Below, piece by piece: positions 1 through 9,924 of a stretch of DNA of 9,924 nucleotides. This DNA is from Microbacteriaceae bacterium. GTDB taxonomy: Bacteria; Actinomycetota; Actinomycetes; Actinomycetales; Microbacteriaceae. The first letter of the stretch is position 1; every line of letters begins with the position of its first letter. The stretch is taken from NCBI GenBank assembly GCA_025464125.1, contig JAODLU010000252.1, forward strand, positions 1-9,924, read 5' to 3'. The notes under the pieces are model-generated. The model had not been told where the DNA came from and made no database searches. It saw only the letters and a program-made list of their open reading frames with translations. The translations under genes and the position numbers were made by a program.

Positions 1-2012
1 ACATCGTTGGCATGGGCTCGAACACCTACGGCGTCGAATCCGCGGCCAACCAGTACTTCAGCACCACGGCGAAAGACGTGACGCTTGCCCAGGCCGCGAG
101 CCTGATCGCCATCGTGCAGCAGCCGAACCTCCACAACCTCAGCGATCCGAAGTTCTACCCGGCCAACAAGATCAGGCGCGACCAGATCCTGAACGCCATG
201 TACGTCGAGAAATACATCGACAAGAAACAGCTCGATGAGGCGCTCGCGACGACCATCGAATCCGAGGTGCACCTGAGCGCCCCGACCAGCGGATGCCTCC
301 ATGCCATCGCCGCGCCCCTGGCCTGTGACTACGTCACAAAGCTCATCACCGCATCGCCGGCCGCCAGCACCCCCGGCCTGCCGCCGCAGCTCGAGTCGCT
401 CGGAGCAACCCCGGCCGAGCGCAAGGCCAACTGGGAAATCGGTGGCTACAAGATCTACACCAGCATCGATCTCGACCTGCAGAAAACTGCAGAAGACCAG
501 CTGGCCGTGCAGACGCCATCGACCGAAGACAGGTTCCCGCTCGGTGCTACTGCCAACTCCGTGGAGGTGGGCACCGGTCGCGTGCTCGTGATGGCGCAGA
601 ACAAGGTGTTCGACGACTCGCTCGAGGGCGCGAAAGACCCGACACACTCAGCCGTCAACTTCACGACCGACTTCCCATACGGAGGCTCGAACGGCTTCCC
701 CACCGGCTCGACATACAAGGTCATCGACCTCGCCAACTGGCTGCAGACCGGCCACGGGTTGGGCGACCTCGTCGACGGCGCATCAGGCCAGAACTATAAG
801 GCTGCAAGCTTCACCGCGCCATGCGATCCTGGCGCGCTGGCCGACTTCGGCCCGCTGAAGAACGACTCGGGTGGCGGCGGCGTCATGACTGTCAAGAACG
901 CCCTCATCGGGTCTGTAAACAACGCGTTCATGCAGATGGCCGAACGCCAGGACCTCTGCAGCATCCGCGACACCGCGATCGCGATGGGCGCGCACCGCGC
1001 AGACGGCCAGCCGCTCACGGTCAACCCGAACTCCATCCTGGGCTCGAACGAACAGGCACCACTGACCATGGCTGGTGTTGCGGCGACCATCGGTTCCGGC
1101 GGCCTGCACTGTGACGCGGTCATCGTCGACAGGGTCGTTGATCCTGCAGGCAAAGATCTTCCAGGCCAGACGAGAACCTGCAACCAGGCCCTGACGTCTG
1201 ATATCGCGGCTGGCACAGCCGACGCGATGGTCGGCTCGATGACCAGCGGCACCAGCTCCCCCGGCAACCCGCGCGACGGCATCCAGATCGGTGGCAAGAC
1301 TGGAACGTCGGACGTCGCCGACCACGTCTGGATCATCGGCACGACGACGAAGGTCGCAACCTCAGTCTGGACCGGAAACATCCTCGGCCACACAAGCCTC
1401 CGAAAGATGAAGAACCCGATCACAGGGTCTTATTACGCAGGCACGTCCAGGTTCAACATCTTCAAGGCGATCATGACGCAGGCCGACCAGATGTATGGCG
1501 GAGACAAGTTCCCTGCACCGTCGGCGGCGGTCATCGGCGGCGCTTCCTCAACAGTGCCCAACGTGACAGGCCAGTCTCCTGAGCAGGCGAAGGCCCTACT
1601 CGAGAGCCTCAAGTACAAGTACCAGGACGGCGGTACGGTCGCGTCAGCCCTCCCGGCAGGCAAAGTCGTCGACACCGATCCGGGTGCTGGCACCAAGACC
1701 CCGACCGGGGCCACCGTGACCGTGTTCACCAGTGACGGAAGCCTTGCCACAACGGTGCCGGTGACAACTGGGCTAACCCGGCAGGCGGCTGATAGTGCCC
1801 TGGTGGCAGCGGGCTTCAGTTTGGCGAATGTGACCTATACCTGGCTCGCCGGTACGCCGACCACCGTCTGTAAGGTCACTGCCTCTAATCCGGCGAGCGG
1901 CACTGCGACATCGAAGAGTTCGGCAGTCACTTTGACCGTCTACGGTCTCGCGGCCGTGCCTGCTAACCCGAATGCTTCACATGATCCGGGCCTGACCGTC
2001 TGCCCAAGATGA
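1..2012 (+). CDS. Class A penicillin-binding protein (PonA2-like), 3' part, with two PASTA domains
   Basis: Bifunctional peptidoglycan synthase: glycosyltransferase (GT51) plus DD-transpeptidase, anchored in the membrane and acting outside it. The 5' end lies outside the window; the frame is open from base 3 and no start is visible. Numbering from the Met codon at base 12, residues 1-90 are the end of the GT51 domain (YGVESAANQYF, then TLAQAASLIAIVQQP). The transpeptidase follows, with active-site SxxK at S233-K236 (GSTYK), SxN at S301-N303 (SVNN) and KTG at 429-431 (GGKTGTS). All catalytic motifs of this domain are intact. Two C-terminal PASTA repeats lie at about 514-578 (starts VPNVTG) and 583-653; these modules bind muropeptides or beta-lactams in related proteins. 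The gene ends in ATGA, shared with the metallophosphoesterase start. A PASTA-bearing class A PBP followed by a metallophosphoesterase matches mycobacterial ponA2-Rv3683 as I recall it. The missing N-terminus (membrane anchor and catalytic Glu of GT51) cannot be judged. Confidence 0.95.
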   Translation, partial: IVGMGSNTYGVESAANQYFSTTAKDVTLAQAASLIAIVQQPNLHNLSDPKFYPANKIRRDQILNAMYVEKYIDKKQLDEALATTIESEVHLSAPTSGCLHAIAAPLACDYVTKLITASPAASTPGLPPQLESLGATPAERKANWEIGGYKIYTSIDLDLQKTAEDQLAVQTPSTEDRFPLGATANSVEVGTGRVLVMAQNKVFDDSLEGAKDPTHSAVNFTTDFPYGGSNGFPTGSTYKVIDLANWLQTGHGLGDLVDGASGQNYKAASFTAPCDPGALADFGPLKNDSGGGGVMTVKNALIGSVNNAFMQMAERQDLCSIRDTAIAMGAHRADGQPLTVNPNSILGSNEQAPLTMAGVAATIGSGGLHCDAVIVDRVVDPAGKDLPGQTRTCNQALTSDIAAGTADAMVGSMTSGTSSPGNPRDGIQIGGKTGTSDVADHVWIIGTTTKVATSVWTGNILGHTSLRKMKNPITGSYYAGTSRFNIFKAIMTQADQMYGGDKFPAPSAAVIGGASSTVPNVTGQSPEQAKALLESLKYKYQDGGTVASALPAGKVVDTDPGAGTKTPTGATVTVFTSDGSLATTVPVTTGLTRQAADSALVAAGFSLANVTYTWLAGTPTTVCKVTASNPASGTATSKSSAVTLTVYGLAAVPANPNASHDPGLTVCPR

Positions 2013-2980
2013 CCAACGGCCACTCCGCGCTGAGGGGCACCGGCTCCGCTTTGGCGGGGCTGGCAGCCATCGGACTTGGCGCGCTCGCATGGGGCACGCT
2101 CGTCGAGCGCAATCGCTTCACCCTGCGACGCGAGATCGTGCCGGTGCTGGCCCCGGGTGCGCGCTCGCTTACGGTGCTTCACCTCTCCGACCTGCACATG
2201 GCGCCGTGGCAGCGCGCGAAGCAGGAATGGATAAGGGGTCTTGCGGTCTATGAGCCAGACCTCGTGGTCGACACCGGAGACAACCTCGGGCACCTTCGCG
2301 GCAATGAGGGTGTCGAATATGCGCTCGAGCCGTTCCGCGGCATCCCAGGAGTTTTCGTGCATGGCTCGAACGACTTCCACGGCCCAGTGGCCAAGAACCC
2401 CTTCCGCTATTTCACCGGTCCGTCCAAAGGACACCAGTCCCCGCCAGATCTCGACACAGGTCGCCTCAACTCGTTCTTCGAGGGCCTCGGCTGGCTCGAT
2501 CTCAACAACGCTGCGCGCGCGATGACGATCAAGTCCAATCGCCTCGAGTTCGTGGGCGTCGGCGATGCACATGTCGGGGCGGAGCGCCTCGAAGCCCTGC
2601 CAGGAGCCATGGATGAGATGCGCGAGAACGTGGGCTGGGCCGACGAGATCGCAGGACCTGACCCCGTCACTATCGGTGTGACGCACGCGCCATACCGTCG
2701 GGTGCTTGACTCGTTCCTCACCAATGGCGCCGAGCTAGTCTTCGCTGGCCATACCCACGGCGGCCAGGTCTGCGTGCCCGGCTACGGCGCGCTCGTGACG
2801 AACTGCGACCTCCCACGCAGCCAGGCCAGCGGCCTGAGCCTCTGGAAGCATGCTCGCCGGGTGGCGTATCTCAACGTTTCAGCCGGGCTCGGAACATCCA
2901 TCTACGCCCCCGTGCGTTTCGCGTGCCCGCCGGAGGCCGTACTGCTGACACTCGTCGGTCGGGATTTCAGCTATTCTTGA
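2009..2980 (+). CDS. Membrane-anchored metallophosphoesterase (calcineurin-like, Rv3683/YaeI type)
   Basis: 323-residue two-metal phosphoesterase. An N-terminal hydrophobic stretch at about residues 10-33 looks like a signal anchor, placing the catalytic domain at the membrane. Metal-ligand motifs appear in the usual order: HLSDLH (58-63), DTGDN (88-92), GSNDFH (119-124) in the place of the common GNHD, THAPY (226 onward) and GHTHGG (247-252). The substrate cannot be read from sequence; relatives include UDP-diacylglucosamine pyrophosphatase-like and general phosphodiesterase enzymes. Its start ATG overlaps the stop of the penicillin-binding protein gene (ATGA) and no clear Shine-Dalgarno precedes it, so translation is probably coupled to the upstream gene. 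That coupling suggests, but does not prove, a role in cell-envelope metabolism. The GNHD-to-GSND change occurs in other actinobacterial relatives as I recall them, so I read it as a family variant and not damage. Confidence 0.92.
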
Positions 2981-2991
2981 TGAGGCTCCGA

Positions 2992-3007
2992 ACGAACCGC
3001 GGTTCGA
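2992..3007. promoter_or_regulatory. Near-consensus LexA-like palindrome upstream of tRNA-Pro
   Basis: The perfect inverted repeat CGAAC-CGCG-GTTCG lies at 2993-3006. Including flanks it reads ACGAAC-N4-GTTCGA, 11 of 12 matches to the actinobacterial SOS box TCGAAC-N4-GTTCGA. It sits in the 39-nt gap between the metallophosphoesterase stop and the tRNA, 13 nt before the tRNA 5' end. It could be a LexA site, a short hairpin in the tRNA leader, or chance. The GC-only centre and single mismatch make binding uncertain. No T-run follows, so a terminator role is unlikely. Confidence 0.35.
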
Positions 3008-3019
3008 TCGTTGCCAAAT

Positions 3020-3093
<74 letters not shown>

Positions 3094-3099
3094 CAGCCA

Positions 3100-3121
3100 G
3101 GGCCGTGACATGTCACGGCCC
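3100..3121 (+). terminator. Palindromic intrinsic-type terminator after tRNA-Pro
   Basis: Perfect 22-nt inverted repeat with arms GGGCCGTGACA and TGTCACGGCCC, 6 nt after the tRNA, followed by the T-containing stretch TTCTGCGTTT. The very stable GC stem and its position directly behind the tRNA support termination of + strand transcripts. The minus-strand oxidoreductase gene converges on it (stop at 3154). In that direction no T-run follows the stem, but the stem could still block read-through both ways. Confidence 0.8.
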
Positions 3122-3153
3122 TTCTGCGTTTAACCACCGAACGAGCTGGCGGG

Positions 3154-4164
3154 TTACTGGAACAGCTCGTTCACGATCTCCAGCGTGTGGACGCGGCTCG
3201 CCAGCTCCGCAGCACCTGGCGAGATGATCAACTCATCGGCCTGGGTGCTGTCGAGCAGCGAGGCCAGCTGGGACAGCACGTGATCAGGGGTGCCCACAGC
3301 CTGCCGACGGTTGCGCTCAGCGACGAACTGCAGCTCCTGCGGAGTGAAGTCGTAGGCCAGACCCTCCTCGACACTCAACGGCTCGGGCTTTGCACCCTGG
3401 CGCATGCGAATGAAGCTGATCAGCCCCGGGCGCGACTGCGCGTCGACCACTGCCGGGTCTTCATCGGTGACGACCCCGACGGCGATCGCGCTGTGCGGCG
3501 CATCGAGGGTGCCGGGCTGGAAGCTGCGACGGTAGAGGTCGAGCGCTGCTTCAGTGTTGTCGCCGGAAAAGTGGTGGGCAAAGGCGAAAGGAAGCCCGAG
3601 CGCGCCGGCCACCTGCGCGCTGTAACCGCTCGAGCCGAGCAGCCACACCTGCGGAAGGTCGCCGAGACCGGGCACGGCGATGATCGAGGCCAGCGGGTTC
3701 TCGTCAGCCATCGACCCCTCGAAGAAACCGATCAAGTCGAGCAGCTGCTGCGGAAAGTCTTCGACCGAGAGGCCTGCCTCGCTGCGGCGGAGCGCCATCG
3801 CTGTTGCACCGTCGGTACCTGGAGCCCGGCCAATTCCGAGGTCGATGCGATCGCCGTAGAGCGCACGCAGCGTGCCGAACTGCTCGGCGACGACCAGCGG
3901 TGAATGGTTGGGAAGCATGACTCCACCACTGCCAACCCTTATACGACTGGTACGCGCAGCGACGCCAGCGATAAGCACCGCAGGGGCGCTCGAGGCGATC
4001 CCCGGCATGCCGTGGTGCTCTGCCACCCAAAAGCGGTCGTAGCCGAGGGCCTCAGCGGCCTGGGCCAGCGCAATAGTGCCAGCGACAGCATCCCCATTGG
4101 TTCCGCCAGCTGGCCTGCTGGCCAGGTCGAGAACGGACAGGGGCACGCGACGTAGTTCAGCCAT
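3154..4164 (-). CDS. LLM-class flavin-dependent oxidoreductase (YhbW/MsnO8-like)
   Basis: 336-residue luciferase-like monooxygenase fold, expected to use reduced flavin (FMNH2) and oxygen on an unknown substrate. Family signatures visible in order: the N-terminal strand PLSVLDLA (8-15), [16 protein letters not shown] (46-61), [17 protein letters not shown] (74-90) then [20 protein letters not shown] (108-118), [13 protein letters not shown] (171-183) and AFAHHF (194-199). This set is typical of the single-component YhbW/MsnO8 subgroup and not of alkane or FMN-binding luciferases with large insertions. The ATG start has GGAG 5 nt upstream (TTGGAGACTGA) and the reading begins at the expected first beta strand. 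It lies 62 nt after thymidine kinase on the same strand with no terminator seen between them, so it may be the last gene of that transcript. Nothing in the context identifies the substrate. Confidence 0.93.
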
Positions 4165-4226
4165 TCAGTCTCCAACCTCGACGGGGTGCCTGCCATTCCA
4201 TCGACTGGACCTGGTGCGCGAGAGCG

Positions 4227-4919
4227 TCAGGCGAAATCCGGATCCGGTGCAGACGAGTAGACGGGGTCCGCGAGCTCCACCAGCACACGTCGCCGACCGC
4301 TGCCGAGCAGGCCGCCGCTTTCTTCGAGATAGCAGGCCCCGCAGAGCGACTCGTACGAGACCTCACCGCCGCCCGAGACCGAGGTATCGATCGCCACCTG
4401 GTCGCCGTCGAAGACGAACCGCCCGTCGATCTTTCTCGTGTTGAAGATGGCCTTGCGACCGCACCTGCAGATCGTCTTCAGCTCTTCGAGTGAATGGGCA
4501 ATCTCGAGCAAACGCCGACTGCCGGGAAATGCCACGGTCTGGAAGTCGGTGCGGATGCCGTACGCCAGCACTGGAACACCCTCCTGGATCGAGATGCGCA
4601 GCAGGTCGTCGACCTGCGCCTCGGTGAAGAACTGCGCCTCGTCGACGAGCAGGCAACTCACGTCGAGGCCGGTGCGCTCGAACACGGCGGCCCGCTTCGC
4701 GGCGAACAGCTCGTACACATCGTCATCCGGTGCCACCACGAAATCGACGGGCCTGCTGACCCCGAGGCGCGACATGATCGCCGCCTCGCCCTTGGTGTCG
4801 ATCGTGGGCTTGGCGAGCAGCACCTGCTGGCCGCGCTCTTCGTAGTTGTATGCGGCCTGGAGCATCGCCGTGCTCTTGCCGCTGTTCATGGCGCCGTAGC
4901 GAAAATAGAGCTTGGCCAC
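4227..4919 (-). CDS. tdk: Thymidine kinase (type II, TK1 family)
   Basis: 230-residue cytoplasmic enzyme that phosphorylates thymidine to dTMP with ATP, the salvage route to thymidylate. The Walker A loop GAMNSGKST is at 9-17. The DEAQF motif is at 93-97, with E94 the likely catalytic base. The lasso/substrate segment YGIRTDFQ (120-127) then FPGSRRL follows. A structural zinc site is formed by CRC (C151, C153) and CGAC (C193, C196), with SYESLC just before the second pair contributing to thymidine binding. Length and motif order match the E. coli-type enzyme, with about 25 extra C-terminal residues. The GTG start shares its first G with the TAG stop of the response-regulator gene (TAGTG), so translation is probably coupled. 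Only a weak GAGG-like sequence lies further upstream. The coupling to a signalling operon is unusual for this gene. Confidence 0.96.
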   Translation of the reverse strand: MAKLYFRYGAMNSGKSTAMLQAAYNYEERGQQVLLAKPTIDTKGEAAIMSRLGVSRPVDFVVAPDDDVYELFAAKRAAVFERTGLDVSCLLVDEAQFFTEAQVDDLLRISIQEGVPVLAYGIRTDFQTVAFPGSRRLLEIAHSLEELKTICRCGRKAIFNTRKIDGRFVFDGDQVAIDTSVSGGGEVSYESLCGACYLEESGGLLGSGRRRVLVELADPVYSSAPDPDFA

Positions 4920-5587
4920 TACTGGAGGTATCCATCCTCGGCGGCCCGGCGGATGAGTTCCGCTTTCTTGCTCGCCGGTCTGTTGGCCTTCACATATTTT
5001 TCCCGCACGCGTCGCAGGTACGTCTTGGCCGTTTCGTATTGCACGTTCATCCGCTGCGCCACCTCGAGAGTGCTGAAACCTGACACATACAGTTTAAAGG
5101 CCTCAGTCTCACCCGCGCTCAATTTCGGTCGCGACTGGTTCGCCGCCCCGACCGGCAAGGGGCGCCAGTCACGCTGGAGGTCCTGGCCCACAGCCAGGCC
5201 CATTACCGACCTGGCGGCATCCATGACCTCGCGCATCGGTACCGCCTTCGAAACGAAAGCTGACGCTCCGGCCTCGAGTGCCCGCTCACGAGCCTCACGG
5301 GTGTCGAGGCTGCTGAGCACGACCACCTTTGCGCCGGCGGCGCGGCACGTGCGAACCCTGGCCTCGATCGAGACAGGCTCCTTCAGCTGGAAGTCGATGA
5401 ACACGAGCTCGGTGGGAAAGTTGTCGCTGTGCACCAGTTGCAGCCAGGTGTGCGCGCTGAGCACGAGTTCGAAATCTGGCGCGTTCGAGGCGATCCAGCT
5501 GCTGATGCTGTCGAGCAGCACCTCGTGGTCATCGAGAATCGCGAGACGGATCCTGCGGGTCGCAACGACGCTTTCGCTATTTGTCAT
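4919..5587 (-). CDS. NarL/FixJ-type response regulator
   Basis: 222-residue two-component response regulator with a receiver domain (about 12-132) and a LuxR-type helix-turn-helix (about 155-222). The receiver has the acidic pair D19-D20, phospho-acceptor D65 in VFIDFQ, S92/S93 at the switch position and conserved K114 in FVSKA. The DNA-binding part shows KLSAGETEAFKLYVSGFS, then EVAQRMNVQYETAKTYLRRVREKY. All phosphorylation residues are intact, so it should act as a phosphorylation-controlled transcription factor. The ATG overlaps the end of the upstream pseudokinase gene by 11 nt and is preceded by GAGG with 7-nt spacing; its stop overlaps the thymidine kinase start. The cognate kinase is most likely the histidine kinase two genes upstream. 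Target genes are unknown; its own operon is the natural first guess. Confidence 0.94.
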   Translation of the reverse strand: MTNSESVVATRRIRLAILDDHEVLLDSISSWIASNAPDFELVLSAHTWLQLVHSDNFPTELVFIDFQLKEPVSIEARVRTCRAAGAKVVVLSSLDTREARERALEAGASAFVSKAVPMREVMDAARSVMGLAVGQDLQRDWRPLPVGAANQSRPKLSAGETEAFKLYVSGFSTLEVAQRMNVQYETAKTYLRRVREKYVKANRPASKKAELIRRAAEDGYLQ

Positions 5588-6767
5588 AGGAGAACCTCAC
5601 TGTCAGTGCCGAGCTGGTGAAATCGATGACGACGTTCGTGAAGACAGCACGCATGATTGCAAAGTACGGCGCGAGAGCAAGGCGCCGAAGGTAATCGTAG
5701 GATTGCAATTTCGCATCGATGACTCCGACGCTCCGCTCGCCGACCTCTGTGAGTTCGATCCTCAGGTCGCCCGCATCGAACTCCGCAGCTTCGATGAGCG
5801 CGACGATGAGCGTGCGGATGGCGGTGCGCTGTTCGGTGGACATGCCGCCGGCGAGATGCCGCTTATCGAGCACCACTGCCTTACCTCCCCCGCCAGGCCC
5901 GGAAGCTGACGACGCCGATGACTCGACGACGCTCTCCAGCCAGCTGCGGTCAGCTTCAGCGACCATCACGCTGCGGATCGAATTGGCGATCGCTCTCGCC
6001 TGCGCCCTGTCGTCATCCGTCACCTGATCGCGGGAAGCCATTTCCCGCAGGAAGGGAATCACATCCCTGCCGAGGATCGTGACCCGATCCTGCTGGATCG
6101 ATCGCGCGATCCCTGGCGAAGCTTCGTCGGTGAGGAGTGCAGATGCTGCCTTCGCACGCGATTGCCAGAGCGCAATTGATCGCACGGTGACTCTCGTGAA
6201 CGCCACGGAAGCGAAGCACAGCGCTAGCAGCGGCGTGACCGCCCTGATCACGAACGCCATCGGTGGCGCGTCGGCGGTGAAGCCGTGCACCTGCAGGATG
6301 ATCACGAACCCGATCACAACAGCGCCGAACACCCCGATCGCAGCCACCTGCCGCGCCGGACGATAAGGCCCACACGCCAGCAGCACCAGGCCGAACGAAA
6401 CCCCGCCCCAGTCGTTGCGGATGAGGGTATTCGTGCCCATCACCGATGCCGCAGACAACACGATCGATGCGATGCCAAGCACTGCGGCAAGCGCCAACGC
6501 GCGGCTCGAGAACGGCGCACGAGACGGCGTGGATGCGATGATCACCACCGCGCTGCTACCGCCAAGTGCTGCAAGCGCAAAGATCGCCACTATGGGATGC
6601 GACAACTCCCGTGCCGCGGTCACGGTCTCCACCAGCGCGAAGATGAAGGCGCCGATAGCTATGACGGAGGTGACCACGCGGTTCGCAACAGCGCCAGCCG
6701 GGTCCAGTTGCTGGCTCGTCGGCTCCGCCGCTGCCGACTCACGGTTCTCAACTGGTGCGGCGCTCAC
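5577..6767 (-). CDS. Six-TM histidine kinase-like protein lacking catalytic motifs (putative pseudokinase)
   Basis: 396 residues: a cytoplasmic N-terminal tail (1-29), six predicted membrane segments (about 30-50, 57-77, 89-109, 121-132, 139-160, 169-190), then a cytoplasmic region laid out like the neighbouring kinase. The segment ILGRDVIPFLREMA (231-244) lines up with LMHDTVLSHLAAIA of the neighbour, but the phospho-accepting His is absent (Gly/Arg in its place). The helix LIVALIEAAEFDAG (320-333) matches the N-box helix with Glu for Asn. VGVIDAK (347-353) stands where the neighbour has the IDSGIGF ATP-lid motif; both glycines are gone. The protein ends with a final strand ALTVRFSYDK. The fold thus seems retained while phosphotransfer is lost. 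The GTG start has a strong GGGAGG 7 nt upstream and overlaps the kinase stop (GTGA). It is in frame and without stops, so it is not a decaying gene. Likely role, by inference: partner or regulator of the adjacent kinase. Confidence 0.8.
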   Translation of the reverse strand: MSAAPVENRESAAAEPTSQQLDPAGAVANRVVTSVIAIGAFIFALVETVTAARELSHPIVAIFALAALGGSSAVVIIASTPSRAPFSSRALALAAVLGIASIVLSAASVMGTNTLIRNDWGGVSFGLVLLACGPYRPARQVAAIGVFGAVVIGFVIILQVHGFTADAPPMAFVIRAVTPLLALCFASVAFTRVTVRSIALWQSRAKAASALLTDEASPGIARSIQQDRVTILGRDVIPFLREMASRDQVTDDDRAQARAIANSIRSVMVAEADRSWLESVVESSASSASGPGGGGKAVVLDKRHLAGGMSTEQRTAIRTLIVALIEAAEFDAGDLRIELTEVGERSVGVIDAKLQSYDYLRRLALAPYFAIMRAVFTNVVIDFTSSALTVRFSYDK

Positions 6768-7981
6768 GGGCCGGCCTCCCCGAACGCGAACTGTGCAGGA
6801 GCTGCGATCGGCATCCTGATCATTATGGAAGTGCCCTGCCCCGGCGTCGACCAGACGTGCACTGCGCCGCCGACAAGCTGCACCCGCTGCCGAACCGAGT
6901 TGCGAAGACCGAGGCGGTCGACTCGTGTGTCCGCCTCAGAGAAACCGATGCCTGAGTCGATGATCATTACCGATATGTCCTGGTCGGCGATATAGGCGAC
7001 AACCTCGGCGCGGGTGGTGCCTGAATGGTCGAGAACGTTCACGAGGCACTGCTTGACGGCGCCGGCGAGCGCTTCGGCTCTCTCATCGTCAAGCCTGAGC
7101 ACGGCGCTGAGATCACCGGTCTGGGAGACATCGAGACCCAGCTCGCGCATCTCCTCGATCGCCGCGAATATGGGTGCCTGGCGCCAGTTGCGACTGATGT
7201 CCTCAGCGGAAATGGCGTGGTCGGCCAGCCATTCCTCCCCCACCACGATCTCGAGGTCACGGTGGATCTGCGCGCTCAACTGGGGATCGATCGGAGCGTC
7301 TGGCGCGTTCGCGATGGCAGCCAGGTGGCTGAGCACCGTGTCGTGCATCAACGCCGCCGCGCGTGCCTCGATGCGATAGCGGGCCAGTGCGAGTTGCTCA
7401 TCCTGCACCGCGCGATGCAGCAGCGGCTGCGCCCTGTTGAATCGACGGATGGTGGTGAACCAGAGCACCAGGATCACCACCGTGACCACGAGGCTCGACG
7501 CTGTGGCGATGTCGAACCGCCAGGCTTCACCACTCTGCAGGATCGCAGCCGCTGATGCGACCTCTGCGACCGCGTAACCGCAGAGCGCCCATGCCAACGC
7601 TCGGAGGAGCCCGACTCCCACGCCGCCAACCATGACGAGGGCGATCTTCGGCAGCGCGATCGAGAACGCGTCGCCCGCCAGGATCGGCTCCGCCTGTGCG
7701 TAGAAAGTCAGGATGTACCAATAGGTGCACGCGGCACCCACCAGCAGGTAGCTGGCGCTCGAAAAGAAGGTCGGCTCGGTGCGGTTGACCAGCAGCAGCA
7801 CCACCATGGGCACGATGGCGATCATCGCGGGCCAGAGAATCAAATGGGGGCGACCAGCCTGGAAAACCACAGCGGACAGGAAGGCCGAAACCAGAAGGGT
7901 GAGACCTATCGCGTGCAGCGACCTGGCGAATGCCTGTGTGATGGTGCGGGCTGCAAGGTGCGAGGGGAGCCCAAGGGACAT
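6764..7981 (-). CDS. Membrane sensor histidine kinase
   Basis: 405 residues with six hydrophobic segments (about 22-42, 45-65, 75-95, 104-126, 127-149, 158-177) and almost no extracytoplasmic domain, so any signal is probably sensed in or at the membrane. A helix leads to the dimerisation/phospho-acceptor motif ALMHDTVLSHL (H213, D214). The HATPase domain has the N-box QCLVNVLDHSG (N315), G1 DSGIGF (342-347), G2 RLGLRNS (357-362) and the closing GQGTSIMIRMP. It should autophosphorylate H213 and pass phosphate to D65 of the downstream NarL-type regulator. The ATG has an excellent AGGAGG with 7-nt spacing. It is first of a chain of overlapping genes (kinase, pseudokinase, regulator, thymidine kinase). 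A 120-nt gap separates it from the radical SAM gene upstream, the likely promoter site for this operon. The signal cannot be inferred. Confidence 0.93.
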   Translation of the reverse strand: MSLGLPSHLAARTITQAFARSLHAIGLTLLVSAFLSAVVFQAGRPHLILWPAMIAIVPMVVLLLVNRTEPTFFSSASYLLVGAACTYWYILTFYAQAEPILAGDAFSIALPKIALVMVGGVGVGLLRALAWALCGYAVAEVASAAAILQSGEAWRFDIATASSLVVTVVILVLWFTTIRRFNRAQPLLHRAVQDEQLALARYRIEARAAALMHDTVLSHLAAIANAPDAPIDPQLSAQIHRDLEIVVGEEWLADHAISAEDISRNWRQAPIFAAIEEMRELGLDVSQTGDLSAVLRLDDERAEALAGAVKQCLVNVLDHSGTTRAEVVAYIADQDISVMIIDSGIGFSEADTRVDRLGLRNSVRQRVQLVGGAVHVWSTPGQGTSIMIRMPIAAPAQFAFGEAGP

Positions 7982-7987
7982 GTCGCT

Positions 7988-7994
7988 TCCTCCT
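7988..7994 (-). promoter_or_regulatory. Strong ribosome binding site of the sensor kinase operon
   Basis: On the minus strand the sequence AAGGAGG precedes the ATG at 7981 with a spacing of about 6-7 nt. It is the best Shine-Dalgarno match in the window. It fixes the start of the first gene of the operon and suggests efficient initiation there, with downstream genes relying partly on coupling. Confidence 0.75.
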
Positions 7995-8101
7995 TAGCGC
8001 ACGACGATGGTCCAGTATCCCAGTAAACGAAGTGTTTTGTACCCTGTTGTTGCCTTGCAGAAGAGCAACATCGCCTCTGTCGCTGGGGCTTCGTACCCCG
8101 G
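7995..8101. promoter_or_regulatory. Intergenic region with repeats, probable promoter of the sensor operon
   Basis: This non-coding stretch lies between the radical SAM stop and the ribosome binding site of the kinase operon. It holds an inverted repeat TGTTGC (8048-8053) / GCAACA (8065-8070) with an 11-nt spacer. It also holds a direct repeat CCAGTA (8012-8017 and 8020-8025) with an 8-nt period, and on the minus strand GATACT (8019-8014) could be a -10 hexamer. No convincing -35 matches it (at best GGTACA with 18-nt spacing). The repeats could be binding sites for the operon's own regulator, but this is inference. A weak stem GGGG/CCCC near 8086-8100, without a T-run, lies just after the radical SAM gene. 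Confidence 0.35.
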
Positions 8102-9169
8102 CTAGAAAAGGGTAGGACCAGCCTGCGAAGTTCGCACACCCGGCGGCGCTGCCACGGGCCTGACCGCAGACCGCCCGAGAGCGACCGAACGGACGCCGCC
8201 AGTCGCCGGGTCTTCAACGCCGCGCTGCAGCCCATGGCGATGCACCAGCGGATTTATTTTTGCAGCGAGCCACGCCCTGTATTCCTTCGGAGCGTTTGCA
8301 CCTGTTCCATACATTGCGGCGTAGCGCTGAACGAGCTGCGGCTGGTTGCGCCGCAACCACTCGAAGTACCACTCCTTCGCGCCCTGCCGCAGGTGCAGCG
8401 CGGTGAACAGTACGGCAGAGGCATCCGCCTCTTTGATCTGCGCAAGTGCGGAGTCCAGGTGGGCGGTCGTGTCAGTGAGGTAGGGCAGGACGGGCATAAG
8501 GAACACCGAACAGGAGAGACCGAGACGCCTCGCCGCGGCCACGGTAGCGAGGCGGACCGCCGCCGTAGGAGTGCCAGGTTCTATTGAGCGCTGCAACTCG
8601 TCGTCAAAGACCGCGATCGACATTGACAGCTGAACGGGAACAACGCGGCTCGCTTCGGCAAGCAATTCCAGGTCGCGTCGCAGCAGCGTGCCCTTCGTGA
8701 GGATGCTGAAAGGCGTACCCGAATCGACGAGGGCTTCGATGATGCCCGGCATCAGTTTGTAGCGACCCTCCGCGCGCTGGTATGGATCGGTGTTGGTACC
8801 GAGAGCCACAGGATGCCTGCCCCAGCTCGGTTTCGCCAGCTCCCTGCGCAGCACCTCTGCCACGTTCACCTTGACCACTATCTGGCTGTCGAAATCGTGC
8901 CCGGAGTCGAGGTCGAGGTATTCATGGGTGCGCCTGGCGAAGCAGTAAACGCAGGCGTGGCTGCAACCGCGGTATGGATTGATCGTCCACCCGAACGGCA
9001 TCGAAGATGCTCCGGGCACATGGTTGAGCGCGCTCTTTGCGAGAACCTCATGGAACGTTATTCCGGCGAACTCCGGGGTCTGCACACTGCGCACGAAGTT
9101 AGACAGCCGCGCCAACCCGGGCAGGGCGTCAGGCTCTTCAGCCCCGAGTTGTTGTCCTTGCCACCGCAT
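8102..9169 (-). CDS. Radical SAM protein of the Rv2578c/SplB-like family
   Basis: 355-residue cytoplasmic radical S-adenosylmethionine protein of the COG1533 (spore photoproduct lyase-related) group. The [4Fe-4S] ligand motif CxxxCxxC is C69, C73, C76 in NPYRGCSHACVYCFAR. Other family blocks are EFAGITFHEVLAKSALN (33-49), ALGTNTDPYQ (122-131), FSILTKGT (154-161), RSIEPGTP (194-201) and PVLPYLTD (226-233). The C-terminal tail after about 315 is low in conservation. The reaction is unknown; family resemblance to photoproduct lyase suggests, without proof, a nucleic-acid repair or modification role. The ATG at 9169 gives the usual N-terminus (MRWQGQ...LPGL). No Shine-Dalgarno precedes it; instead a LexA-type operator lies 6 nt upstream, pointing to SOS control and a leaderless mRNA. 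Some actinobacterial relatives are annotated as intein-containing; there is no intein here. Confidence 0.93.
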   Translation of the reverse strand: MRWQGQQLGAEEPDALPGLARLSNFVRSVQTPEFAGITFHEVLAKSALNHVPGASSMPFGWTINPYRGCSHACVYCFARRTHEYLDLDSGHDFDSQIVVKVNVAEVLRRELAKPSWGRHPVALGTNTDPYQRAEGRYKLMPGIIEALVDSGTPFSILTKGTLLRRDLELLAEASRVVPVQLSMSIAVFDDELQRSIEPGTPTAAVRLATVAAARRLGLSCSVFLMPVLPYLTDTTAHLDSALAQIKEADASAVLFTALHLRQGAKEWYFEWLRRNQPQLVQRYAAMYGTGANAPKEYRAWLAAKINPLVHRHGLQRGVEDPATGGVRSVALGRSAVRPVAAPPGVRTSQAGPTLF

Positions 9170-9204
9170 ACGAACATTCGAACATGCGTTCGAATGAGAG
9201 TCAA
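9170..9204 (-). promoter_or_regulatory. Probable leaderless SOS promoter of the radical SAM gene
   Basis: On the minus strand TTGACT (9204-9199, five of six matches to TTGACA) is followed after 17 nt by TCGAAT (9181-9176) as a possible -10. A start about 7 nt later would fall on the A of the ATG at 9169, giving a leaderless transcript. The -10 lacks the usual A at its second position, so it is weak; the -35, spacing and absence of a Shine-Dalgarno support the reading. The -35 overlaps the mqo stop codon. Confidence 0.5.
9175..9196. promoter_or_regulatory. LexA (SOS) box upstream of the radical SAM gene
   Basis: Perfect inverted repeat with 9-bp arms CATTCGAAC (9175-9183) and GTTCGAATG (9188-9196) around a 4-bp spacer. 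The core TCGAAC-N4-GTTCGA (9178-9193) is a full match to the published mycobacterial/actinobacterial LexA consensus. An extra CGAAC half-site lies at 9171-9175. The operator fills the 31-nt gap after mqo and lies within the likely promoter spacer, so LexA binding would block RNA polymerase. Confidence 0.85.
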
Positions 9205-9924
9205 GCTATGGCGAGCTGCTTCTCAGTCAATTCGAGCGTCTTGCCGGCCAGCTTCGGGTCATCCGAGAGCTGCTTGCCGTAGCTCGGCACCATCTTCTTC
9301 AGCTGCGGAGTCCAGCCGGCCAGGCGGTCGGGGAAGCACTTCGCGAGCACGTCGAGCATGATCGGCACCGCAGTCGAAGCACCGGGGGATGCGCCGAGCA
9401 GGCCCGCGATGCTGCCGTCGGCGGCGGTGACCACCTCGGTGCCGAACTGAAGCACCCCGCCCTTCTTGGCATCCTTCTTGATCACCTGCACGCGCTGGCC
9501 AGCAGTGATGCGGTACCAGTCCTTTGGATCCGCGTTTGGCATGAACTCCTGGAGTGCGCCGAACTTGGTCTTTTTGCTCGCGGCAAGCTGCCCGATGAGG
9601 TACTTCACCAGGTCGAGGTTGGCGGCACCAGCAGCCAGCATCGGGATCAGGTTGTGCGGGCGAATGGTCGCGAAAAGGTCGAACCACGAGCCGCTCTTCA
9701 GGAACTTGGTGTTGAAGCCCGCGTACGGTCCGAACATCAGGCTGGCGTTACCGCCCACGATGCGAGTGTCGAGATGCGGCACCGACATGGGAGGCGAACC
9801 GACCGCGGCCTTGCCGTAAACCTTCGCCTGATGGCGGGCGACGACCTCGGGGTTGTCGGTGCGCAAGAACTCGCCGCTGACCGGGAACCCGCCGAAGCCT
9901 TTGGCCTCGGCTATGCCCGACTTC
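9201..9924 (-). CDS. mqo: Malate:quinone oxidoreductase, C-terminal part
   Basis: Membrane-associated FAD enzyme that oxidises malate to oxaloacetate and passes electrons to the quinone pool, joining the TCA cycle to respiration. Only the last 241 residues are in the window; the start lies beyond the right edge. Family-typical blocks seen in order are [59 protein letters not shown], then the C-terminal [20 protein letters not shown], which forms part of the flavin-binding region. The reading frame is intact to the TGA at 9203-9201 and no truncation is seen. No terminator is visible in the 31 nt before the radical SAM gene, so mqo transcripts may read into it in addition to the LexA-type promoter. 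Confidence 0.95.

Follow-up and report, generated by a model that had tools for sequence, protein, structure and literature searches.

The 9,924-nucleotide stretch of contig JAODLU010000252.1 of a Microbacteriaceae bacterium (assembly GCA_025464125.1, positions 1 to 9,924; hereafter the window) carries a gene for a radical S-adenosylmethionine (SAM) protein of the Rv2578c family that is preceded by an exact copy of the actinobacterial LexA operator, and many relatives of this protein end in a short peptide resembling those that bind the bacterial DNA sliding clamp. These two features suggest an SOS-induced enzyme that would be recruited to the clamp and act on a DNA lesion, a reading to which we give a probability of about 0.55. 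That SplB-like radical SAM genes are under SOS control has been published before and is not new; the new part is the clamp-binding-like tail that recurs across the family. An earlier note on this DNA, which had described the operator, mentioned neither a -10 element nor the clamp-binding-like C-terminus of the family.

A LexA operator ahead of the radical SAM gene

The gene and the elements in front of it are placed as follows.

8102..9169, - strand: Rv2578c-family radical SAM protein, 355 aa (NF038135, PF04055; model predicted local distance difference test score, pLDDT, 85.7)
9178..9193, no strand assigned: LexA-type operator core TCGAAC-ATGC-GTTCGA, 0 mismatches, kept upstream of relatives
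9199..9204, - strand: predicted -35 TTGACT, overlapping the mqo stop at 9201-9203; the best-fit -35 starts TTG in 62 of 81 upstream regions
9176..9181, - strand: predicted -10 TCGAAT, 17 nt past the -35 and 6 nt before the ATG; the best fit is TCGAAT in 54 of 81

On the + strand, positions 9175-9196 read CATTCGAAC-ATGC-GTTCGAATG, a palindrome with arms of 9 bp (9175-9183 and 9188-9196) and a spacer of 4 nt, within which TCGAACATGCGTTCGA at 9178-9193 is exactly the actinobacterial LexA operator TCGAACN4GTTCGA. It lies in the 31-nt gap between the stop codon TGA of mqo (9203-9201, - strand) and the ATG of the radical SAM gene (9169-9167, - strand), where the operator ends 8 nt ahead of the ATG and overlaps the predicted -10. 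The earlier description of a palindrome with 9-bp arms and the full core, situated in this gap between TTGACT and the start codon, agrees with these coordinates, and at the level of sequence the operator observation is confirmed. TCGAACN4GTTCGA without mismatch has a single match in the whole window; when up to three mismatches are allowed there are 14 matches, against 4.99 expected and a maximum of 13 in 200 shuffles. With a matrix derived from 35 recA and lexA promoter boxes, none of them from the radical SAM gene, the site scored 22.8 bits, the top score in the window; the runner-up, a separate site, reached 12.9, and in 200 random windows the best-scoring sites had a mean of 9.5 bits and a maximum of 24.2. 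An equally good site somewhere in 9.9 kb is thus rare by chance, yet not impossible. Across the 2.09 Mb of the assembly to which the window belongs, which is 64.66% complete, there are eight copies of the 14-mer core CGAACN4GTTCG and three of a backwards control pattern; the outer T and A that complete the 16-mer are found at one of the eight, the site in the window, and the other seven, none with the full 16-mer, were set aside as chance or other palindromes. Elsewhere in the window, at 2992-3007, a LexA-like palindrome with one mismatch lies 12 nt ahead of a tRNA-Pro (CGG) gene at 3020-3094.

The promoter elements were fitted over 81 upstream regions with spacers of 16-18 nt and a distance to the start of 5-7 nt; since TTGACA and TCGAAT served as the scoring references, the fit is biased toward these sequences. 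The best spacing was 17 nt plus 6 nt in 57 of the 81, with T, T and G in 90%, 83% and 83%, respectively, at the fixed columns -35 to -33. Read on the - strand, the predicted -10 falls mostly within the right-hand half-site, which is conserved at a mean of 87% per base at fixed columns, compared with 81% for the other half; the need for a promoter may therefore explain part of the conservation.

A box with at most two mismatches was found within 250 nt upstream of recA in 19 of 23 relatives' loci, the own assembly included (the window's own recA box is TCGAACATATCTTCGG), and ahead of lexA in 16 of 21; of the own lexA only a C-terminal fragment, located where a contig begins, is present, and its promoter cannot be read. 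Judged from these promoters, TCGAACN4GTTCGA is the LexA motif of the window's lineage. For the radical SAM gene itself, the box was sought no more than 120 nt from the match start in 80 loci chosen by protein similarity, the best 80 among the matches listed, in which the best box had 0 mismatches in 39, one in 26, two in four, three in nine and four in two (at most one in 65 of 80) and ended exactly 8 nt ahead of the start in 68; elsewhere in the same loci, 531,016 positions held no perfect match and six with one mismatch. In the Microbacterium loci (16, within L071-L089) the box is decayed in 11, with promoter-like elements retained, which may mean that this genus has lost or altered SOS control. 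Upstream of the start codon at L036 there are two LexA-like palindromes, overlapping or neighbouring.

A set of 43 loci made up of relatives and class members, the window counted in, had 0, 1, 2 and 3 mismatches in 13, 13, 5 and 12 loci (at most two in 31). Nine of the twelve three-mismatch loci belong to one large-genome genus (g9), whose box is GGGAACN4GTTCTA, 30-33 nt ahead of an ATG with a GAGGAG-type ribosome site, and a box similar to this, GCGAACATGTGTTCTA, was seen in one Streptomyces. In other classes, 40 loci were compared over approximately 360 nt upstream, and a box with at most two mismatches was present in 28 of the 29 distant Rv2578c-clade members as against none of the 11 remoter homologues (background, six such matches in 58,440 positions). 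Nineteen of these 28 boxes end 5-15 nt ahead of the next possible start and five are placed where the start codon would overlap the box; at L210 the best box is far upstream and a three-mismatch box is nearer to the gene. The earlier note had asked for a comparison of orthologues, and because the box is conserved in related genera and in other classes its proposal was not refuted by this route; absence of the box was not the outcome.

Homologues of the family are also found in Proteobacteria, in which the LexA motif is GTTC-N7-GTTC in the alphaproteobacteria and CTGTN8ACAG in the enterobacterial type. Sixteen of 66 records of plasmid homologues, partly doubles of a genus, were fetched, with eight alphaproteobacterial loci among them. 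A perfect GTTC-N7-GTTC lies upstream in seven of these eight, representing four genera, and these are the sole perfect matches in 33,546 positions on both strands; upstream of the Pseudorhodobacter gene (L264) the motif is absent. The sole gammaproteobacterial locus, from Aeromonas, has a perfect CTGTN8ACAG box, CTGTATATATAAACAG, 12 nt ahead of a possible start. Members of this radical SAM family therefore carry SOS boxes in three LexA codes. The proteobacterial boxes agree with the LexA sites reported at splB-like genes in alpha- and betaproteobacteria (PMC3323433).

A recurrent clamp-binding-like C-terminus

8105..8119, - strand: GPTLF, the window's clamp-binding-like peptide and the C-terminal end of a tail (residues 333-355) predicted to be disordered

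Residues 333-355 of the window protein have a pLDDT below 50 and are predicted to be disordered. Across the family this linker varies in length and in its letters, and a short peptide recurs at its end. The consensus for clamp binding is QL[S/D]LF, or more broadly QxxLF, with xxxLF in DnaE3 polymerases (PMC12309361, PMC9690074), and endings such as QPTLF, QLTLL and QLSLF match it. Tails were counted in 96 nearest relatives after exclusion of L070, which has a broken frame, and L107, which is the window itself (L045 and L185, apparently one sequence, were both counted), and LF was found among the last four residues in 95 of the 96, the mean in shuffled tails being 0.82 and the largest value three. 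The Q form, defined as Qxx[LMI][FLIVMW] in the last nine residues, is present in 36 of these 96, in 11 of 11 members of genus g9 (QLTLL, QLSLI), in 11 of 15 other class or order members, in 21 of 29 other-class clade members, in 4 of 4 PA0069-like proteins and in 3 of 7 remote homologues. Three sets of 120 proteins, each composed of close relatives, contained it in 72, 60 and 118 cases versus shuffled means of 0.7, 0.5 and 0.9, respectively. Alphaproteobacterial copies end in QLSLF, QLTMF, QLSLL, QLRLF, QYSLF or QLTLF and the Aeromonas copy in QLRLF. As a control, lipoyl synthase of the same relatives showed the Q form in none of 21 loci (21 of 30 were used, the remaining nine being weaker matches to the model). 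Among remote homologues that have no actinobacterial LexA box, L205, L206, L209, L266 and L267 end in QASLF, QGSLF, QEKLF, EQLGF and EQLSFF; since such box-less proteins end in clamp-like peptides, the tail may be wider in distribution than the SOS box.

The GPTLF of the window fits the consensus at positions 4 and 5 only, and as it has no Q the grip of this protein on the clamp may be weak, so that the clamp reading is weaker for the window protein than for the family. A Y-family polymerase was tried as a clamp control within the lineage and dropped, a QxxLF-like peptide following IMS_C in 3 of 30 (QPTLF, QASLL, QGDLL). Because that control was unhelpful, NucS was taken for comparison. The C-terminal pentapeptide of NucS/EndoMS, EYRLF in Mycobacterium tuberculosis, binds the clamp (PMC12892979), and in 23 of 23 loci of the relatives NucS has a terminal LF but no Q at position 1 (SRLF in 13). 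NucS/EndoMS of Actinomycetota, a DNA enzyme, resembles the present protein in having a C-terminal pentapeptide, and differs from it as an unrelated nuclease for which SOS control is not claimed.

Family, fold and neighbourhood of the enzyme

8942..8965, - strand: CX3CX2C cluster motif, residues 69-76 (C69, C73, C76), invariant in 52 of 52 aligned members
9201..9923, - strand: mqo (malate:quinone oxidoreductase), 3' part, upstream of the radical SAM gene and co-directional
6764-7981, - strand: histidine-kinase-like gene, downstream of the radical SAM gene
5577-6767, - strand: open reading frame without a family match, downstream
4919-5587, - strand: response regulator gene, downstream

The window protein matches the NCBIfam Rv2578c family NF038135 over its full length with 510.4 bits (curated cut-off 430), a family without a known reaction, and we noted no difference from it in domain; with 208.5 bits it falls below the cut-off of 360 for the PA0069 family NF033668 and is not a member. 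Of 296 genomes sampled from the phylum, 135 had a family match at E 0.001 and 34 one over the family cut-off, and phages gave four weak matches in metagenomic records. At L192, L181 and L184 the radical SAM gene is interrupted by an insert of intein size, and P0060, P0081 and P0125 carry PF14890; at L192 the reading changes exactly at the third cluster cysteine (ACTYCLQGDTP), and NF038136 is the NCBIfam model for intein-containing members.

The solved fold nearest to the predicted model is that of spore photoproduct lyase (SPL), so that the window protein, as modelled, combines an SPL-like fold with the cluster motif; the structural matches ranked after SPL are enzymes that act on proteins, RNA or small molecules. 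In the solved lyase Cys140 is the hydrogen donor. Compared with Geobacillus SPL (PDB 4FHC and mutants), the 52 aligned members have no conserved counterpart of this residue: beyond the three cluster cysteines, the fullest cysteine column has a cysteine in 20 of 52, the window protein having Ala there. As two MAFFT modes disagreed on the placement of Cys140 at residue level, we claim only that no further cysteine is conserved; the last chemical step would accordingly differ from that of SPL, since the donor is not kept. The C-terminus of SPL (chain residues 332-367 are seen) also has no clamp peptide, unlike the tails of the Rv2578c family.

Of 81 loci, 37 have an mqo-like open reading frame upstream, and two-component genes lie downstream in 35 and 31 of them. 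Transcriptional read-through from mqo is possible.

Proposed mechanism and alternatives

As the site agrees with the operator at every letter and shares bases with the predicted -10, LexA would likely keep the radical SAM promoter shut until DNA damage sets off the SOS response, in which LexA is cleaved. With the operator covering the -10 and transcription starting on the ATG, repression by occlusion and a leaderless mRNA are predicted. The C-terminal peptide would then bring the induced enzyme to the sliding clamp, and there, by a radical chemistry akin to that of SPL, the enzyme would likely reverse a lesion in a nucleobase; in the window's copy the tether may be weak, or may rest on the LF end as in NucS of the same lineage. 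A perfect LexA box and clamp-like tails in many relatives make it likely that the enzyme works on damaged DNA, and taken together, tail and operator are best read as pointing to a role in DNA repair close to replication. The earlier interpretation is partly supported: the box, its position at the gene start, its conservation and the relation to SPL at the level of the modelled fold stand. A hydrogen-donor cysteine without conserved counterpart speaks against a plain SPL reading.

A number of results weigh against this reading. The Q form is absent in 60 of 96 nearest relatives and in 60 of 120 proteins of one set, and in Escherichia coli changes at position 1, where GPTLF has no Q, weaken clamp binding (PMC12309361). 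The box has at least two mismatches in 15 of 80 loci, 11 of these among the 16 Microbacterium loci, and three in 12 of 43. The hexamer TCGAAT makes a poor -10, its second position not being A, and a strict sigma-70 scan that requires this A reports no promoter here. The window protein does not match the SPL model PF20903, which is matched by 25 of 52 family members at E 0.01, and no recurrent repair-gene neighbour was found across the 81 loci in which one was sought.

It is somewhat unlikely, in our view, that the C-terminal peptide is not a clamp ligand but serves in some other way, for example as a signal for degradation or as a contact with a partner or within a dimer. The retention of LF in near relatives that have no Q, and in the window's own tail, could fit another hydrophobic C-terminal signal; however, exact QLSLF, QLTLF and QLTLL recur in separate phyla and fit the published clamp consensus, and NucS, a clamp client, likewise ends in LF without Q. 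The gene may also be SOS-induced as part of a general damage programme while the enzyme modifies protein, RNA or a free nucleotide. The substrates of the structural matches that follow SPL, the missing hydrogen-donor cysteine and the want of a recurrent repair neighbour all speak for this alternative, which we regard as unlikely. That the palindrome is kept mainly for the -10 in one half, or is a relic, with mqo read-through dominant and LexA minor, is very improbable: the -10 half is slightly better kept, the box is decayed in most Microbacterium loci and no - strand terminator-like site lies between mqo and the radical SAM gene, but the other half has no mismatch in the window and is well conserved, other classes retain the palindrome at different distances, and Proteobacteria have other LexA motifs in its place.

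Relation to known systems

Rv2578c and PA0069 are reportedly listed in older papers on the LexA regulons of M. tuberculosis and Pseudomonas aeruginosa, respectively. A radical SAM gene belongs to the core SOS regulon predicted for Gram-positive bacteria, Leifsonia xyli being among the species analysed (PMC7739468), predicted SOS networks of Bacteroidetes include SplB (PMC8565304) and SplB-like genes have been found in ImuB-C operons (PMC3765255). In Streptomyces venezuelae the radical SAM gene vnz_31145, possibly the orthologue, has a LexA peak and 19.97-fold induction by mitomycin (PMC9380542); its box, TCGACCGTTCGCTC at -61, differs from the Streptomyces box found here. Being in print, SOS control is less surprising than the earlier note had supposed. 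The regulons of S. venezuelae, Gram-positive bacteria, alpha- and betaproteobacteria and Bacteroidetes contain an SplB-type radical SAM gene under LexA, as is predicted for the present gene, and the passages available on them do not mention a clamp peptide. In the open-licence literature we found no description of the C-terminal peptide of the Rv2578c family and no link between SplB-like or Rv2578c-type radical SAM proteins and the bacterial clamp. Archaeal SplB-like genes are often beside NreB, with a possible PCNA motif, and a review proposes crosslink repair (PMC4929162); this pair is similar in that an SplB-like enzyme whose substrate is not known occurs near a possible clamp motif, and differs in that the motif is on the neighbour NreB and not on the enzyme. 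The Streptomyces phage Samy integrates in a gene of the Rv2578c family (PMC12924846).

We tentatively suggest that SplB-like enzymes across bacteria may form a clamp-tethered, SOS-induced system of direct reversal at stalled forks, which would use a cysteine-free variant of SPL-type chemistry on an unassigned class of lesion, perhaps intrastrand crosslinks, with archaea reaching a similar arrangement through NreB. For enzymes of a kind whose SOS control is known, the recurrent clamp-like peptide offers a direct route to their job. Clamp binding, if true, would point to DNA close to replication as the substrate, and an oxygen-sensitive radical enzyme would join the repair tools borne by the clamp.
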